NCBI RefSeq assembly: GCF_030528505.1
Contig: NZ_JAUMYS010000005.1
Coordinates: 1-64,000 of the forward strand
From: Tannerella sp.
Lineage (GTDB): Bacteria; Bacteroidota; Bacteroidia; Bacteroidales; Tannerellaceae
Direction: 5' to 3'
Length of the DNA stretch: 64,000 nucleotides
The stretch's first letter is position 1; each line of letters opens with the position of its first letter. Below, in pieces: positions 53,499 through 63,061 of the stretch. The position numbers were made by a program, and so were the translations under genes. Below the pieces are notes generated by a model, which did not search any database, was not told where the DNA came from, and saw only the letters and a list, made by a program, of their open reading frames with translations.

Positions 53499-55892
53499 CT
53501 ATTCGCTTTTCAGCGTTTTAACCGGATTGATCGTAGCGGCACGCCAACTTTGCCACGAGACCGCTGCAACCGAAAGCAGCAGTACAGATAATCCCGCCAA
53601 CAGGAAAATCCACCAGTCAAGAGCGGTTTTGAACGCGAATATCTCAAGCCATTTTATCATCACCATATAGGCCCCCGGGACAGCCAATAGAAAGGCTAAT
53701 CCTATCCAAAGTACAAAACGATAATTCAGCATACGAACAATGTCCGAAGGCTGTGCTCCATTTATTTTACGGATACCGATTTCTTTTGTCTTCCGTTTCA
53801 CGATGAAAGCCATTACAATAATCAAGCCTAATGTAGCCACCAGCAAGCATAGTGCAGAAAAGATATGGGTCAGTTGTTCGGCATGCAATTCGTTGTAGTA
53901 GATGCCGTCGTATACATCATGCAGAAAAGTGTAGTGTGCCGGATAATCCGGATTGATTTGCTGCCAGACACGATTAAATGTGCGGAGAGCTTCCTCGGTA
54001 TGATCGGGCGAGAGGTAGACCATCAGGCAATGTTGAAAGAGGGCACGTTGCAGTAGCAGTTGAGGAATTGCATCGTCGTAAGTCGTCGTATAGTTGAAAT
54101 TTTCCGTTACCCCGACGATCGTTCCTTTATTAATATAATCGATCCCTCCTTTCCCGTGACGAATATGGAGCCGTTGTCCGATTGCTTCGTCGGGAGTATT
54201 GAATCCGAGTATTTCGGCTGCTTTTCGGTTGATAACGTACTCTTCTGTCAGGTCAAGTGCAGGTTTACCTTCTATCGAGTCAAAAAGCATTTGCTCTTCT
54301 TCTTCGAGGGTATGCAATCCTTTGCTAAAACCTGTCCCTGATAAAAGACGAATGCCGAAGAATGGAACAAAATCTTCACCGACAACGAGTACAGGGAGTC
54401 GTCGACCTTCTTCTTCGCTCTCTTGGTCGGTACGTACATACACGCCATCCCGAATGGCTGAACCGGGTAGTTGCATAGCCGAGGTAACCCGATGAATCTC
54501 GGGATGCTTAGCCAGTTCGGCTTTCAACAATCCGTAGCGTCGTATCACGCTCGACGGCTGTTCTCTCATCACCAAAACAGTGCGCTCTTTACCTCCGACC
54601 TGGCTGGTACGAATCAGCCCGATTTGTCGTGAAATGCATACACTCACAATGACTACAAACATAACAATTGCATATTGCCCGATCAACATATACCTGATAT
54701 TCGGCAGTGCAAATTCTGTACCGTAGGGATGGAACTGCATACTTAAAAAGCGCGTAGAAGACATCTGACGGATAACCGGTATGACCGACGTTACCATCAC
54801 CAAGATCGGAAATAAAGTACAAAGCAAGATGAATGCCTTTGTATTTGAAACAGCTTCGGAAAATAAACCGGGCATCACCGATTGTGCCGAAAGCAGCCCG
54901 GCAAGCACCGCTGTACTTCCCAGAATGAGCGCCAGCAAGCATTCGTCCCAAAAGACGCGCCACGACGATGCTCCGTTAAGCCGTAACAACTGATAATATC
55001 GGCGGTTGAACGAAAAAATCAGTCCGGCATTCAGCCAAAGGTTGAAGAGAACAATCAATAACAGAAGTAGGTTGGCGCCGGCAATCAGATAAATATAATA
55101 GATGTTACTGTTGGGTTCGTGTTCACGCTGAAAATGGCTATGCAAATGAATATCGGTCAGCGGAAACAGCAAAGGGGATACCTTACGCGGAGCATTACTG
55201 TTCAGTTTTTCCAGATTGGCGGCAATGCCTTGTTCCAAGTCAGCTATATTAGTCTGAGGATGGAGCAACAGATAAACATATGAAAACATGCTCGTGGCAT
55301 CGTCCGGTAAATGGACAAGTAAATCCGTATGGAAGTGAGACGTTTCCGGAAAATCTTCAAAAACGCCGCTGATAAACACTTTACGGTCGGGAAATTTACG
55401 TCCGTTAACAAGCTCCAACTCTTTCCCTATGGGGGAAGTGTCGCCAAACAGTCGATTTGCATAACTGCGGCTGATTACGGCTTTCTCCGGAGCGTTCAGG
55501 ACGGTATGCGGATCACCGTCCAAAAGGCTAAAATCAAACACCTCAAAGAAATTTTTACTTACAAAATAGAAATGATCCGTCAGATAATTTTTTCCTTCGT
55601 GTCTTAACTCTCCGCTCTCGGCTTTATGCATCCTGACGACGGCTTCTATTCCTGTGATGCCTGCTAATGCCGCATCGGATGGTCCGAATCCGTAGATACG
55701 CACATCGGTCGGTTCGTTTTCTGTTTGAAAAGATAACCGGACGATCTGCTCGGCATGTCGGTGAAACTGGTCATAGCTTGTTTCTTTGCGGATATAGGCA
55801 TACGAAAGCAACAGACATGCAAAAATAACTGATAACCCCAACAAGTTGACTAATCGCAATGATTTACTTTTTTTCAATCGTCTTAATAACAT
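53499..55892 (-). CDS. FtsX-type ABC transporter permease (MacB-like)
   Basis: 797 residues. A first membrane helix (LVNLLGLSVIFACLLLSYAYI) is followed by a MacB-like periplasmic domain (about 45-245), three helices, a second periplasmic domain (about 420-650) and a final FtsX block with KRKTKEIGIRKINGAQPSDIVRML, i.e. a duplicated eight-helix architecture. Such proteins in Bacteroidota often stand without their ATPase gene, as here. They are thought to export lipids, peptides or drugs or to act as mechanotransmitters. The upstream DNA carries a sigma-54-like promoter and an activator-site-like inverted repeat. Confidence 0.88.
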   Translation of the reverse strand: MLLRRLKKSKSLRLVNLLGLSVIFACLLLSYAYIRKETSYDQFHRHAEQIVRLSFQTENEPTDVRIYGFGPSDAALAGITGIEAVVRMHKAESGELRHEGKNYLTDHFYFVSKNFFEVFDFSLLDGDPHTVLNAPEKAVISRSYANRLFGDTSPIGKELELVNGRKFPDRKVFISGVFEDFPETSHFHTDLLVHLPDDATSMFSYVYLLLHPQTNIADLEQGIAANLEKLNSNAPRKVSPLLFPLTDIHLHSHFQREHEPNSNIYYIYLIAGANLLLLLIVLFNLWLNAGLIFSFNRRYYQLLRLNGASSWRVFWDECLLALILGSTAVLAGLLSAQSVMPGLFSEAVSNTKAFILLCTLFPILVMVTSVIPVIRQMSSTRFLSMQFHPYGTEFALPNIRYMLIGQYAIVMFVVIVSVCISRQIGLIRTSQVGGKERTVLVMREQPSSVIRRYGLLKAELAKHPEIHRVTSAMQLPGSAIRDGVYVRTDQESEEEGRRLPVLVVGEDFVPFFGIRLLSGTGFSKGLHTLEEEEQMLFDSIEGKPALDLTEEYVINRKAAEILGFNTPDEAIGQRLHIRHGKGGIDYINKGTIVGVTENFNYTTTYDDAIPQLLLQRALFQHCLMVYLSPDHTEEALRTFNRVWQQINPDYPAHYTFLHDVYDGIYYNELHAEQLTHIFSALCLLVATLGLIIVMAFIVKRKTKEIGIRKINGAQPSDIVRMLNYRFVLWIGLAFLLAVPGAYMVMIKWLEIFAFKTALDWWIFLLAGLSVLLLSVAAVSWQSWRAATINPVKTLKSE

Positions 55893-55927
55893 CTTCTTTC
55901 GTTTTTTAGATTCTTCCGATTATATTC

Positions 55928-55946
55928 TTTCAAAAATGATGCCAAT
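55928..55946 (-). promoter_or_regulatory. Sigma-54-like promoter (candidate)
   Basis: On the minus strand TTGGCATCATTTTTGAAA: the -24 element TGGCA and the -12 element TTG stand at the proper spacing; the -12 GC is changed to GA. It lies about 40 bp before the permease start. No TAnnTTTG box of comparable quality is seen in this leader. Confidence 0.45.
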
Positions 55947-55995
55947 ATGCTAAATTCTCAATAAATCAAATCGTTGTGAAGATTTTACTTGCTTT

Positions 55996-56041
55996 AAAGT
56001 GTCCAAAAATTAGACACAGCCGTCTAATTTTTGGACACTTT
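55996..56041. promoter_or_regulatory. 20-bp perfect inverted repeat, activator-site candidate
   Basis: Left arm 55996-56015 and right arm 56022-56041 are fully complementary with a 6-nt loop (ACAGCC). Each arm is itself a near-palindrome of the form GTC-N9-GAC (GTGTCCAAAAATTAGACAC in the left arm). It lies 50-95 bp upstream of the sigma-54-like box, the usual distance of enhancer sites. It could instead be a hairpin in RNA, though no gene ends next to it on the plus strand. Confidence 0.55.
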
Positions 56042-56176
56042 TTAGTCTTTTGTACCAATGTCTCGAAAAACTTTTTAGCTTCAATTAGGTGCTTTGACTG
56101 AAACCGACTTAAGGAATATATAAAAAACAACATGCTGCTTGGGGGTATAGAAAAATGACTTTCAGGTTAATATAAC

Positions 56177-56214
56177 GAAAAGGCCGCCTCGTTATAGATT
56201 CGAGACGGCCTTCT
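56177..56214 (-). terminator. Terminator of rplS
   Basis: AAGGCCGCCTCG pairs with CGAGACGGCCTT (one mismatch), with T residues following on the minus strand; about 20 bp from the rplS stop. Confidence 0.8.
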
Positions 56215-56236
56215 TTTAATTTTGTTACGAAGTCGA

Positions 56237-56849: not shown

Positions 56850-59834
56850 ATGAATAAGATCAATTGTATTTTGCTGTTTTGCCTGCTTGGGTTGAATATG
56901 ACGTCGCAAGTAGAGCCTGCCTTATTTCGGAAAGCGGATAAAGCGAAGATGAATCACTGGGTCGATTCGGTATACCGCACAATGACGGAAGATGAACGAA
57001 TAGGACAATTATTTATGGTCATAGCCGAGCCTAAGTCGGATGCGGCCAACATGCGAAAGATCGAAGGTTACATCACGAATCAAAAAGTGGGCGGCGTACT
57101 TTTTCACAAAGGAAATCCGTTGACACAGGCCGAAGTGACGAATCGACTGCAAAAAGTTGCGCGCGTACCGCTGTTTATCGCTCTCGACGGGGAGTGGGGC
57201 TTATCGATGCGCCTGAGCGAAACGACGCGGTTTCCCAAAAACATGATGTTAGGGGCCATTGAAGACATCCGTCTGATTGAAGCTTACGGCGCCGAAGTCG
57301 GACGACAATGCCGAGAGATGGGCATCCATATCAACTTCGCACCGACCATCGACGTGAACAGCAATACGGACAATCCCGTCATCGGTCTCCGCTCGTTCGG
57401 CGAAGATCCCGATGCTGTGGCGGAAAAAGGCGTAGCGTATGCGCGCGGACTTGAAAGCACAGGCATCTTCTCCGTTGCGAAACATTTTCCGGGACACGGT
57501 GATACCTCGGACGATTCGCATCATACTTTACCCGTTTTACGCCGTTCGATGAAAGAGATGGACAGCATTGAGCTGTCTCCTTTCCGTCATTATATCAAGG
57601 CCGGATTTGCAGGTATGATGACGGCTCATCTGTATGTGCCGGCACTCGACAAAAAGCAGAAACGGGCGGCTTCGATGTCGGATGCAGTCGTTACGGAGTT
57701 GCTGCAGAAGAAAGACGGCTTTCAGGGACTTTGCTTTACGGATGCTTTGGCCATGAAAGGCGCCGAGCGCAACAAGCAGGACAGCCCTTCGGTTCTGGCA
57801 TTAAAGGCCGGTAACGATATTGCTCTCGCCCCGAACAAACTGGCCAAAGAAATAGAAGCCGTAAAAGCAGCGATTACCGACGGAACACTTAGCAAAAATG
57901 ATATCGCTTCGAAGTGTAAAAAGATTTTGTCGTACAAATACATTGCCGGATTGAACAATTATCGTCCGATTAAAATCGCAGGTCTGTCCGAACGGCTAAA
58001 CTCTGCCTATGCCACTTGGCTCGCTGCCAAGTTGAACGAAGAATCGATTACGTTATTAAAAAACGAATCGGACTATCTGCCTCTGAAACAACTTGAAAAG
58101 AAAAAGATTGCTTTGCTTTCCATCGGCGATTTATATGACGAAGAGTTTCAATCGACACTGGGTAAATACGATGCCATTGACCATTACAGAATCACGCTTT
58201 CGACGAAGGAAGCCGAAATCGAGACCATTGTTCGTGATTTAGAAAAATATGATGTGATTATTTGTGGTGTCTATACGGTACGAATCAACGAGCATCCGGC
58301 ATTAGCCAAACTCGCCGCACGAAAAGACTGGGTATATGTCTTCTTTACCCTGCCTTATTTTTGCAAAGAGTATAAAGTCTCTATCAAGCATGCTAAGGCT
58401 GTAGTCATGGCGTATGAAGGGACTCCGTTCGCACAGAACTATGCAGCGCAAGCGGTGTTCGGAGGTATTCCGACGAAGGGCAAACTGGCTGTCACCATCC
58501 CCGGTATGTTTTATGCGGGAACGGGTATCTTTACGGAAAAGACACGTTTGGGGTATCATCTTCCCGAAGAGGTGGGGATGGATGCCGCCCGTCTGGCAGA
58601 AATCGATGCCATTGTAAAGGAAGGATTGAGTAAAGAGGCCTATCCGGGATGCCAAGTACTGGTAGCCAAGAACGGAACAATTGTATACGACAAATCGTTC
58701 GGATATTATGACTACCAACGGAAGCAGAAAGTAACGAGCCGCTCGGTGTATGATCTCGCATCGGTTTCAAAAGCAACCGGCACCCTGTTGGCCGTGATGA
58801 AAACTTACGACGACCGGTTGATCACGTTGAACAACCCTGTTTCTTCCTATATCCCGTCCTTGCGAGAAAGCAACAAAGTGCATCTGACGGTTGAAGAGCT
58901 GTTGTATCATCAGTCCGGCATCGTACCGTCCATTCCTTTTTACATGGATGCCATCGATGAAAAAAGTTATACCGGCAAGCTGTACAGCCGTACCCAAAGC
59001 GCTACACATCCCGTACGTCTGGATGCGCAGACTTATGCTCGCAACGACTTCAAGTTCTTCCCTCATCTCATATCGGAGACGAAAAAGCCGGGCTTCACCG
59101 CCGAAGCTGCGAAGCATATCTATGTACATGATTCGTTCAAGGACGTCATCATGCAAAAGATTAAAGACTCGAAGCTCGGTGAGCGCGGGAAATACAAATA
59201 CAGTTGCATAAACTTTATTCTGCTGAAGATGATGGTTGAGCAACAAACCGGGCAACCGATGGACAAGCTCTTGCAGGCTCATTTTTTCGATCGGCTGGGA
59301 GCACGCACAACGACTTACAACCCCCTGCATAAAATGGATACGATGGTGATTGTCCCGACCGAGAACGATGAGTTTATACGTCGGCAGTTGCTGCGTGGTT
59401 ACGTACATGACGAGGCGGCAGCCTTTCAGGGTGGCGTTTCGGGAAATGCCGGCCTGTTCTCCAATGCGGGCGATCTGGCCAAGCTGTTGCAATTGTATTT
59501 AAATAAAGGTACGTATGGCGGCGAATCGTATCTTTCTGCCGAGACGTGCAAACTCTTTACGCAAAGCAAAAGTCCCACTTGCCGTCGCGGGTTGGGATTC
59601 GACAAGCCCGATACCGGCAATCCGGACGCATCGCCTTGTGGGCTATTGGCGCCTGCTTCGGTTTACGGACACACCGGATATACCGGAACGGCCTTCTGGG
59701 TAGACCCCGAGAACGAATTGATTTATATCTTTTTGAGCAACCGGGTGCATCCCACACGCGCTAACGGGAAACTGTCATCGCTCGAAATCCGCACACGCAT
59801 TCAGGACGCGATTTATCGCGCGATAAAGAAATAA
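56850..59834 (+). CDS. GH3 glycosidase fused to a serine beta-lactamase-like domain
   Basis: 994 residues with an N-terminal signal peptide. The first ~370 residues are a GH3 beta-N-acetylglucosaminidase domain of the NagZ type: KHFPGHGD (K211, H212) with a DDSHH catalytic loop and the nucleophile region CFTDALAMKG (Asp298). A middle domain (about 390-560) follows, then a class C beta-lactamase/esterase-like domain (about 585-994) with SVSK (Ser638, Lys641), a YSCIN motif and HTGYTGT as the KTG counterpart. Such two-enzyme proteins are known in Bacteroidota and fit cutting of peptidoglycan or N-acetylated glycans plus cleavage of a peptide or ester, outside the cytoplasm. The order of action is not known. 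Confidence 0.92.
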   Translation: MNKINCILLFCLLGLNMTSQVEPALFRKADKAKMNHWVDSVYRTMTEDERIGQLFMVIAEPKSDAANMRKIEGYITNQKVGGVLFHKGNPLTQAEVTNRLQKVARVPLFIALDGEWGLSMRLSETTRFPKNMMLGAIEDIRLIEAYGAEVGRQCREMGIHINFAPTIDVNSNTDNPVIGLRSFGEDPDAVAEKGVAYARGLESTGIFSVAKHFPGHGDTSDDSHHTLPVLRRSMKEMDSIELSPFRHYIKAGFAGMMTAHLYVPALDKKQKRAASMSDAVVTELLQKKDGFQGLCFTDALAMKGAERNKQDSPSVLALKAGNDIALAPNKLAKEIEAVKAAITDGTLSKNDIASKCKKILSYKYIAGLNNYRPIKIAGLSERLNSAYATWLAAKLNEESITLLKNESDYLPLKQLEKKKIALLSIGDLYDEEFQSTLGKYDAIDHYRITLSTKEAEIETIVRDLEKYDVIICGVYTVRINEHPALAKLAARKDWVYVFFTLPYFCKEYKVSIKHAKAVVMAYEGTPFAQNYAAQAVFGGIPTKGKLAVTIPGMFYAGTGIFTEKTRLGYHLPEEVGMDAARLAEIDAIVKEGLSKEAYPGCQVLVAKNGTIVYDKSFGYYDYQRKQKVTSRSVYDLASVSKATGTLLAVMKTYDDRLITLNNPVSSYIPSLRESNKVHLTVEELLYHQSGIVPSIPFYMDAIDEKSYTGKLYSRTQSATHPVRLDAQTYARNDFKFFPHLISETKKPGFTAEAAKHIYVHDSFKDVIMQKIKDSKLGERGKYKYSCINFILLKMMVEQQTGQPMDKLLQAHFFDRLGARTTTYNPLHKMDTMVIVPTENDEFIRRQLLRGYVHDEAAAFQGGVSGNAGLFSNAGDLAKLLQLYLNKGTYGGESYLSAETCKLFTQSKSPTCRRGLGFDKPDTGNPDASPCGLLAPASVYGHTGYTGTAFWVDPENELIYIFLSNRVHPTRANGKLSSLEIRTRIQDAIYRAIKK

Positions 59835-60966: not shown

Positions 60967-61053
60967 TTTAGCGGCCGGTTGTGCCTGATAAAATGGAGTG
61001 CCTGCCACTTCGCGCTCCGAGGTTCGGATAAACGGAAAAAGGCAAAAAAGCGC

Positions 61054-61061
61054 TACCTTTG
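61054..61061 (+). promoter_or_regulatory. Promoter -7 box of the ABC-F gene
   Basis: TACCTTTG followed by CC, 23 bp before the ATG at 61085. Confidence 0.65.
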
Positions 61062-61084
61062 CCGGTCGGAAAAAAAGAAGAAAG

Positions 61085-63061
61085 ATGATATCAATCGAAG
61101 GACTGACCGTCGAGTTCGGCGGTTTCACGCTGTTGGACGGCTTGTCGTTTGTCGTCAACCGCAAAGACCGCATTGCGCTGGTGGGAAAGAACGGGGCGGG
61201 GAAGTCGACGTTGCTGAAGATTCTCGCCGGCATGCAGCAACCTACACGCGGTACGGTGAGTATCCCGCGCGAGACGACGGTCGGCTATCTGCCGCAGCAA
61301 ATGCAGCTGTCAGACACGCGTTCGGTGCGTGAAGAGACGGAACAGGCTTTCGCGCATATCCACGCAACGGATGCGGAGATTAAACGCATAAACCTTGAAC
61401 TGTCGCAGCGTATGGACTATGAGTCGGAAGCGTTTCAGAAACTGATCGACCGGATGACGTGGCTCACCGAACAGTTTCAGATGATGGGGGGCGCGAATTA
61501 TCATGCCGAGCTGGAGCGTACGTTGTTCGGGCTGGGCTTTACGCGCGAGGACCTCGAGCGTCCGACGGCGGAGTTCAGCGGCGGGTGGCGCATGCGTATC
61601 GAACTCGCCAAGCTACTCTTGCGACGCCCCGACGTACTGCTGCTCGACGAGCCAACGAACCATCTCGACATCGAATCGATTCAATGGCTGGAGTCATTCA
61701 TGGCTACGTCGGCCAACGCCGTGATTCTCGTGTCGCACGACCGCGCGTTCATCAACAACACGACGCACCGCACACTCGAAATCGAATTGGGGCATATCTA
61801 TGATTATAAGGTGAAGTACGACGAGTATGTCGTGCTGCGTCGCGAGCGCCGCGAGCAGCAGCAGCGCGCTTACGAGAACCAGCAGAAGATGCTGGCCGAT
61901 ACGGAAGCCTTTATCGAGCGGTTCCGTTATAAGGCGACGAAGGCCGTACAGGTGCAGTCGCGCATCAAGCAGCTTGCCAAGGTAGAGCGCATCGAGGTGG
62001 ACGAGGAAGACCATGCGATGCTGCATCTTAAATTCCCTCCCGCGCCACGCTCCGGCTCGTATCCGGTGACGGTAGAGAACCTGAGCAAGCGCTACGGCGA
62101 TCATCTGGTGTTTGCCGACGCCACGTTTACGATTCATCGCGGCGACAAGGTGGCGTTTGTAGGCAAGAACGGCGAGGGAAAATCGACGCTCGTGAAGTGC
62201 ATCATGGGCGAGATCACCGACTATGGAGGTACGCTACAGCTCGGGCACAACGTCCGTACGGGATATTTCGCGCAGAATCAGGCGCAGTTGCTCGACGAGA
62301 GCAAAACCGTTTTCGAGACGATCGATTACGTGGCGCAGGGCGATATCCGCACGAAGATACGCGACATATTGGGCGCGTTCATGTTCGGCGGCGAAGCGTC
62401 GGACAAGAAAGTGGGCGTACTCTCGGGCGGCGAGCGCAGCCGGCTGGCCATGATCCGCCTGCTGCTCGAACCGGTCAATTTACTGATTCTCGACGAGCCG
62501 ACGAACCACCTCGACATGCGCTCGAAGGATGTTCTGAAGGAAGCGTTGCGTGAATTTGACGGCACGCTGATCGTCGTGTCGCACGACCGGGAGTTTCTGG
62601 ACGGGCTCGTAGATAAGGTCTATGAGTTCGGGAACAAGCGCGTGCGAGAACATCTGGGCGGTATCTACGAATTTTTGGAGCGTCGCAAGCTGGAGACGTT
62701 GCAGGAGTTGGAGCGCAAAACGCAGTCGTCGGTGTCCGTGGGGGAGGTCTCGCCTTCGCAGCCGGCCGGCGCGGCCGGAAAAGCGCCCGACGCAAAGCCG
62801 CAGGCCGCGCGCTCGTACGAAGAGCAGAAGGAGCGGGCGCGGCGTTTGCGTAAATTGGAAAAGGCGGTAGCCGATGCCGAACAGGAGATTATGACGTTAG
62901 AAGAGGAGATCGCCACGCTCGAAGCACGCATGGCCACCCCCGAAGGAGCGGCGGAAACTGCGCTCTACACCGAGCACGGAAGGCTGAAAACGGCGCTTTC
63001 GGAAGCGATGGACCGCTGGACGGAGGCTTCCGAGGCGCTGGCGGAAGTCTCCGAGTCGTAA
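61085..63061 (+). CDS. ABC-F family ATPase
   Basis: 658 residues from the ATG at 61085; the frame from 60998 runs through the promoter box. Two ABC domains with Walker A at 34-42 (GKNGAGKST) and about 360-368 (GKNGEGKST), signatures FSGGWRMRIELAKLL and LSGGERSRLAMIRLL, and DEPTNHLD in both. The linker between them (about 245-310) is the charged helical P-site tRNA-interaction motif typical of ABC-F. No membrane part. A C-terminal Ala/Pro-rich spacer leads to a coiled coil (about 580-658). Probably a ribosome-associated translation factor of the Uup/YheS kind; an antibiotic-resistance role is possible but not indicated. Confidence 0.93.
   Translation: MISIEGLTVEFGGFTLLDGLSFVVNRKDRIALVGKNGAGKSTLLKILAGMQQPTRGTVSIPRETTVGYLPQQMQLSDTRSVREETEQAFAHIHATDAEIKRINLELSQRMDYESEAFQKLIDRMTWLTEQFQMMGGANYHAELERTLFGLGFTREDLERPTAEFSGGWRMRIELAKLLLRRPDVLLLDEPTNHLDIESIQWLESFMATSANAVILVSHDRAFINNTTHRTLEIELGHIYDYKVKYDEYVVLRRERREQQQRAYENQQKMLADTEAFIERFRYKATKAVQVQSRIKQLAKVERIEVDEEDHAMLHLKFPPAPRSGSYPVTVENLSKRYGDHLVFADATFTIHRGDKVAFVGKNGEGKSTLVKCIMGEITDYGGTLQLGHNVRTGYFAQNQAQLLDESKTVFETIDYVAQGDIRTKIRDILGAFMFGGEASDKKVGVLSGGERSRLAMIRLLLEPVNLLILDEPTNHLDMRSKDVLKEALREFDGTLIVVSHDREFLDGLVDKVYEFGNKRVREHLGGIYEFLERRKLETLQELERKTQSSVSVGEVSPSQPAGAAGKAPDAKPQAARSYEEQKERARRLRKLEKAVADAEQEIMTLEEEIATLEARMATPEGAAETALYTEHGRLKTALSEAMDRWTEASEALAEVSES

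Follow-up and report, generated by a model that had tools for sequence, protein, structure and literature searches.

The leader of an orphan FtsX-type permease gene in Tannerella sp. is very probably an enhancer-dependent sigma-54 promoter that belongs to an NtrC-type regulon, through which the orphan permease and an efflux pump operon would be co-expressed. The gene lies in a window of 64 kb, which is the whole stretch of DNA analyzed here. A first-pass annotation of this DNA had described the leader as the arrangement expected for activation by an NtrC-type response regulator. At the level of sequence, this view was supported by paired dyads, the spacing of a -24/-12 element, the presence of rpoN and of a suitable regulator in the genome, and the occurrence of similar sites throughout the family Tannerellaceae.

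The permease gene (53499–55892, minus strand) is located between dnaA and rplS and encodes a protein of 797 aa. Both domains of the MacB/FtsX-type ABC permeases exceeded their curated cut-offs (MacB_PCD, 76.9 vs 27 bits; FtsX, 52.1 vs 25.5 bits), and the PDB gave weak sequence matches to MacB chains of known structure; the class assignment is based on these Pfam and PDB sequence matches. Unlike the duplicated orphan permease ADOP (TIGR03434) and DarB, the protein remained below the respective cut-offs (158 vs 622.3 bits and 46.7 vs 700 bits). Its reading frame is intact, and a dN/dS of about 0.09–0.10 indicates purifying selection. No MacB-type ATPase gene adjoins it, and the closest ABC protein that the window encodes (60998–63061) has two ABC domains, a layout by which it looks like a member of the ABC-F/Uup kind. 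The window also encodes, at 56850–59834 on the plus strand, a 994-aa protein with glycoside hydrolase family 3 and beta-lactamase-type domains.

A predicted sigma-54 -24/-12 element, TTGGCATCATTTTTGAA, was identified in the leader at 55945–55929 on the minus strand and is kept in relatives. The TGGCA-N6-TTG at sigma-54 spacing reported in the first-pass annotation was thereby confirmed. The element resembles TTGGCAT-N7-TTGAA and scores 14 of 16.5 against the consensus YTGGCAY-N5-TTGCW, with exact spacing and with the last C replaced by A. Its spacing is that of the GG-N10-GC pattern of sigma-54-dependent promoters, although the -12 part is GA here (GG-N10-GA) rather than GC. On the basis of this element, transcription is predicted to start near 55918. 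The same annotation had assigned most other genes in the window to TAnnTTTG promoters. This motif was indeed enriched, being found within 150 bp upstream of 11 of the 46 ORFs that are 200 aa or longer (2.5 expected), but such a proportion does not extend to most genes.

Further upstream lies the perfect inverted repeat that had been placed at 50–95 bp. It spans 55996–56041, 54–91 bp upstream of the -24 element, and has two arms of 20 nt (55996–56015 and 56022–56041) that are 6 nt apart and 100% complementary. The repeat, whose arms were previously described as near-palindromic, resolves into two 17-bp dyads of the form TGTC-N9-GACA on the minus strand, both of which are predicted activator sites. 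The distal dyad TGTCCAAAAATTAGACG (56021–56037) is conserved in orthologous leaders, and the proximal dyad TGTCTAATTTTTGGACA (56000–56016), contained in a full GTGTC-N9-GACAC palindrome (55999–56017), recurs unchanged in the gap that separates tolC from the regulator gene (see below). With 4 bp between them, the dyads are 21 bp apart from centre to centre, that is, two helical turns. The reading as two dyads is preferred because the arms are not perfect inverses in genomes G034 and G063, where both dyads are retained. When the tandem dyads and the -24/-12 element were scored together, the permease leader reached 29, compared with 23.5 for the next-best place in the window and 24.5 for the highest score in eight shuffled windows. 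Pattern searches of the 2.9-Mb genome, from which the genome-wide dyad statistics were derived, found three exact copies of GTGTC-N9-GACAC: one in the permease leader, a letter-identical one in the regulator/tolC intergenic region on contig C33, and one elsewhere whose spacer is unrelated. As expected of an NtrC-type enhancer, the dyads are repeated, share one helical face and are common to the targets.

The source genome is close to T. forsythia. The protein scan of genome contigs gave two close relatives and one distant relative, and dyads together with a -24/-12 element were found before permease orthologs in five other genomes (G012, G034, G063, G016 and G022). The orthologs of G063 and G016 share 57–65% protein identity and have different upstream DNA. 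For eight other permease orthologs, no tandem dyads were found in the upstream sequence that could be inspected, which covers only a short stretch in some cases. A short-repeat array (GGGGYGTCTTTTTGCTCAGACRCCCC...AATGGACTCTCCAAC) was observed near the permease gene of G022 (L047, about 1000–1530 and the opposite end of the locus).

The architecture could be recognized family-wide. The composite pattern was unspecific at two mismatches, with forward counts close to the control, and therefore only matches with zero or one mismatch were used. At up to one mismatch, the tandem dyad pattern gave 254 matches in 125 Tannerellaceae genomes, whereas the reversed control gave 17. Among 30 loci sampled for gene context (one per genome), 28 adjoin genes for an FtsX permease, a MacB-type ATPase, TolC or the response regulator of the system, and a -24/-12 element was located 52–55 bp downstream of the dyad in all 28 classified loci (54 bp in the window). 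The scan of other FtsX-permease leaders thus revealed the dyads at a fixed distance from the promoter. When only TGTC and GACA were fixed in the search, positions A6, T12, A27 and T33 were invariant as well in 31 family sites, giving the dyad consensus TGTC-N-AAWWWTT-N-GACA. Two loci differ in context. At L133 (206–243), a perfect tandem dyad adjoins the 3' end of rho, and on its other side no more than about 200 bp remain before the contig end, which means that the target gene may be off the contig. At L115 (1501–1538), a queF-like gene lies close to the tandem dyad, efflux genes are missing from the neighbourhood and a -24/-12 element is not evident; dyads almost identical to these are present in G074, G057 and G054. 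Outside the family, most dyad matches in 295 sampled genomes of the order look like chance, while the A+T-rich matches are again found beside genes for TolC, permeases or ATPases, in several families other than Tannerellaceae. The earlier proposal of a regulon of orphan FtsX-type permeases is supported by leaders across the family, but in the Tannerella forsythia group the regulon that can be recognized comprises one orphan permease and one complete pump operon.

The genome contains one copy of rpoN (C85:36118–36594, PF04552) with an intact RpoN box, RRTVAKYREQMGI, and rpoN is near universal among the 125 family genomes examined. Two strong sigma-54 activators were found in the genome. One is a response regulator of 451 aa on contig C33 (10802–12157) with a receiver domain, an AAA+ domain with GAFTGA and a Fis-type helix-turn-helix (HTH), followed by a histidine kinase gene; this is the kind of NtrC-type protein that the first-pass annotation had suggested looking for, and its gene shares a dyad with the divergent tolC. 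The other, on contig C102, has AAA+ and Fis HTH domains and no receiver domain. A full-length ortholog of the C33 regulator (E ≤ 1e-167) was present in 71 of the 83 genomes with sites and in 3 of the 42 without sites at one mismatch, leaving 12 genomes with sites only and 39 with neither (p = 3e-18, a value that overstates independence because the genomes are related). In some of the 12 genomes that lack a full-length match, the regulator match is a fragment in a draft assembly. Sites and this type of regulator therefore co-occur.

The dyad in the gap between the C33 regulator gene and tolC was found in the source genome, in G012 and in L125, L126 and L160. In G012 the cluster is continuous, with regulator and kinase genes on one side and tolC, HlyD, permease, permease, ATPase and permease genes on the other; a complete regulator/pump cluster is present in both G012 and G034. 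In the source genome, this cluster appears to be split between contigs C33 and C51. The tolC promoter has a -24/-12 element, TTGGCATGGTTTTGGCA, at the same spacing from the dyad as in the permease leader, and in G012 and G034 it is 54 bp from tandem dyads. Comparison of the tolC promoter of the source genome (L039:12158–12394, C33) with that of G012 (L193:11474–11731) revealed that exactly one 21-bp dyad unit is missing, leaving one full dyad instead of two, which could be a slipped deletion affecting expression or an assembly collapse. Between the clustered permease genes of C51, G012 and G034, no dyads above background were found, so that in these genomes the tolC promoter probably serves the whole operon. 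This differs from, for example, G020, where the ATPase and permease genes have dyad sites of their own. The ATPase of the pump cluster (L040:5090–5764, plus strand; 224 aa) has its best match in DarD, the ATPase of the darobactin exporter, below the cut-off (285 vs 375 bits), a likeness that hints at peptide export. Just upstream of the regulator gene, a Schlafen AlbA_2 protein of 1173–1184 aa is encoded in G034 (L191:3804–7325, minus strand) and G022 (L194:9543–13097, minus strand); this gene is absent from that position in the source genome and G012.

Three other explanations of the leader were considered. An ordinary sigma-70-type or TAnnTTTG promoter, with the repeat serving as a repressor operator, has very little probability in our assessment. 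A TATAAT-like stretch does follow the -12 element in the source genome, and dyads could in principle bind a repressor. However, in a three-leader alignment TTGGCAT, TTTTTG and the dyads are kept whereas this stretch is not, since the two nearest relatives have CATGAC or CATGAT in its place. No sigma-70 match was found in the permease leader, and TAnnTTTG is absent within 260 bp upstream of the gene. In addition, a simple operator would have to lie closer to the promoter than the dyads do, and the dyads recur at the same narrow distance from -24/-12 elements. This explanation was rejected, as was the similarly improbable one in which the repeat acts as RNA, in the form of a hairpin or an intrinsic terminator, and the match to a -24/-12 element has arisen by chance. 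An RNA copy of the repeat would indeed fold well, at -29.3 kcal/mol (z -8.7), and on the plus strand a terminator-like site is predicted there. Nevertheless, no plus-strand gene ends at this place, and the upstream gene rplS has its own G+C-rich hairpin followed by T (56169–56223, minus strand), separate from the dyads and probably its terminator. The spacers of the two dyads pair at 66.7%, compared with 63.8% for spacers of different loci, and pairing at this cross-locus expectation indicates selection for DNA half-sites rather than for an RNA hairpin. Moreover, the sites precede genes and keep a constant distance to -24/-12 elements, so that the repeat is not a gene-end terminator, a possibility that the first-pass annotation had named.

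It is somewhat less improbable, but still unlikely, that the promoter is sigma-54 dependent and that the dyads are bound by the C102 activator or by another regulator. The domains of the C102 protein would be suited to such a role, and some genomes have sites without a full-length match to the C33-type regulator. Yet the C102-type activator is near universal (117 of the 125 genomes, including most of those without sites) and showed no association with the sites (p = 0.72), whereas the sites track the C33-type regulator and a dyad is located between that regulator gene and tolC. The C102 activator is thus disfavoured, and the C33-type regulator remains our preferred candidate.

The system is like the NtrC, ZraR and AtoC sigma-54 regulons in having a REC-AAA-Fis regulator with GAFTGA, a paired kinase, upstream dyads, a -24/-12 promoter and a dyad at the regulator gene. 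It differs from them in several respects: the NCBIfam score of the regulator falls short of the cut-off for each of the named regulators shown (for example AtoC, 357 vs 714 bits; NtrC, 326 vs 559 bits), the dyads have a sequence of their own, are paired at 21 bp and keep to a narrow spacing of 52–55 bp, and the targets are multi-permease ABC exporters. A 2025 promoter-matrix survey (PMC12316311) describes sigma-54 promoters before FtsX-like (COG0577) permeases in Bacteroidia, termed there first evidence, and thus shares with our results the tie between sigma-54 promoters and this permease family. In the passages searched, no enhancer, activator, Tannerella, Parabacteroides or orphan permease tied to a pump operon was found. 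A search of literature on sigma-54 in Tannerella and Porphyromonas and on sigma-54 and MacB efflux in Bacteroides, with most subscription papers outside its range, gave nothing on the regulon and no account of the enhancer, the regulator or the family-wide architecture. As in MacB-type tripartite exporters (MacAB-TolC, DarBCDE for darobactin export, and ADOP), the permeases have MacB_PCD and FtsX domains and the cluster includes an HlyD adaptor, an OEP/TolC channel and the 224-aa ATPase close to DarD, MacB and LolD. Unlike in those exporters, the permeases of this system are about 790 aa long, with several in one operon and one elsewhere.

In the working model of NtrC-type activators, a signal acts through a kinase, the phosphorylated regulator occupies dyads, and the sigma-54 holoenzyme is opened by an ATP-driven step. 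Applied to the present case, the histidine kinase would phosphorylate the response regulator encoded on contig C33, dimers of which may bind the two tandem dyads on the same helix face (21 bp apart) and oligomerise. ATP hydrolysis by the regulator would then open the RNA polymerase–sigma-54 complex at TTGGCAT...TTGAA, and expression of the orphan FtsX-type permease would be raised together with that of the tolC-HlyD-permease-ATPase operon beside the regulator gene. The orphan permease would probably join the MacB-type ATPase, adaptor and outer-membrane channel of the operon; that it shares the operon ATPase is our guess from the lack of a neighbouring ATPase gene. The system may have a role in envelope stress or export. 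A broader proposal, which we regard as possible but somewhat doubtful, is that Tannerellaceae possess a dedicated sigma-54 regulon in which a core TolC-HlyD-ATPase exporter is expressed, under a single two-component system, along with a variable complement of scattered orphan FtsX permeases working on the same ATPase, which would constitute a modular, permease-swapping efflux or envelope-defence system under one tandem-dyad enhancer.

Targets of sigma-54 in Bacteroidales are little known, and the regulon described here provides an enhancer that can be recognized by its sequence, candidates for both the activator and the kinase, and a class of targets, the multi-permease ABC exporters, that occur throughout a family of gut and oral bacteria. 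Since the dyad motif alone predicts members of the regulon in family genomes, the regulator, the signal and the export substrate become directly testable. The value of these results thus lies in a family-wide enhancer code and in the link of a lone permease to a complete exporter, and the regulon offers an explanation for lone FtsX permeases that have no neighbouring ATPase.
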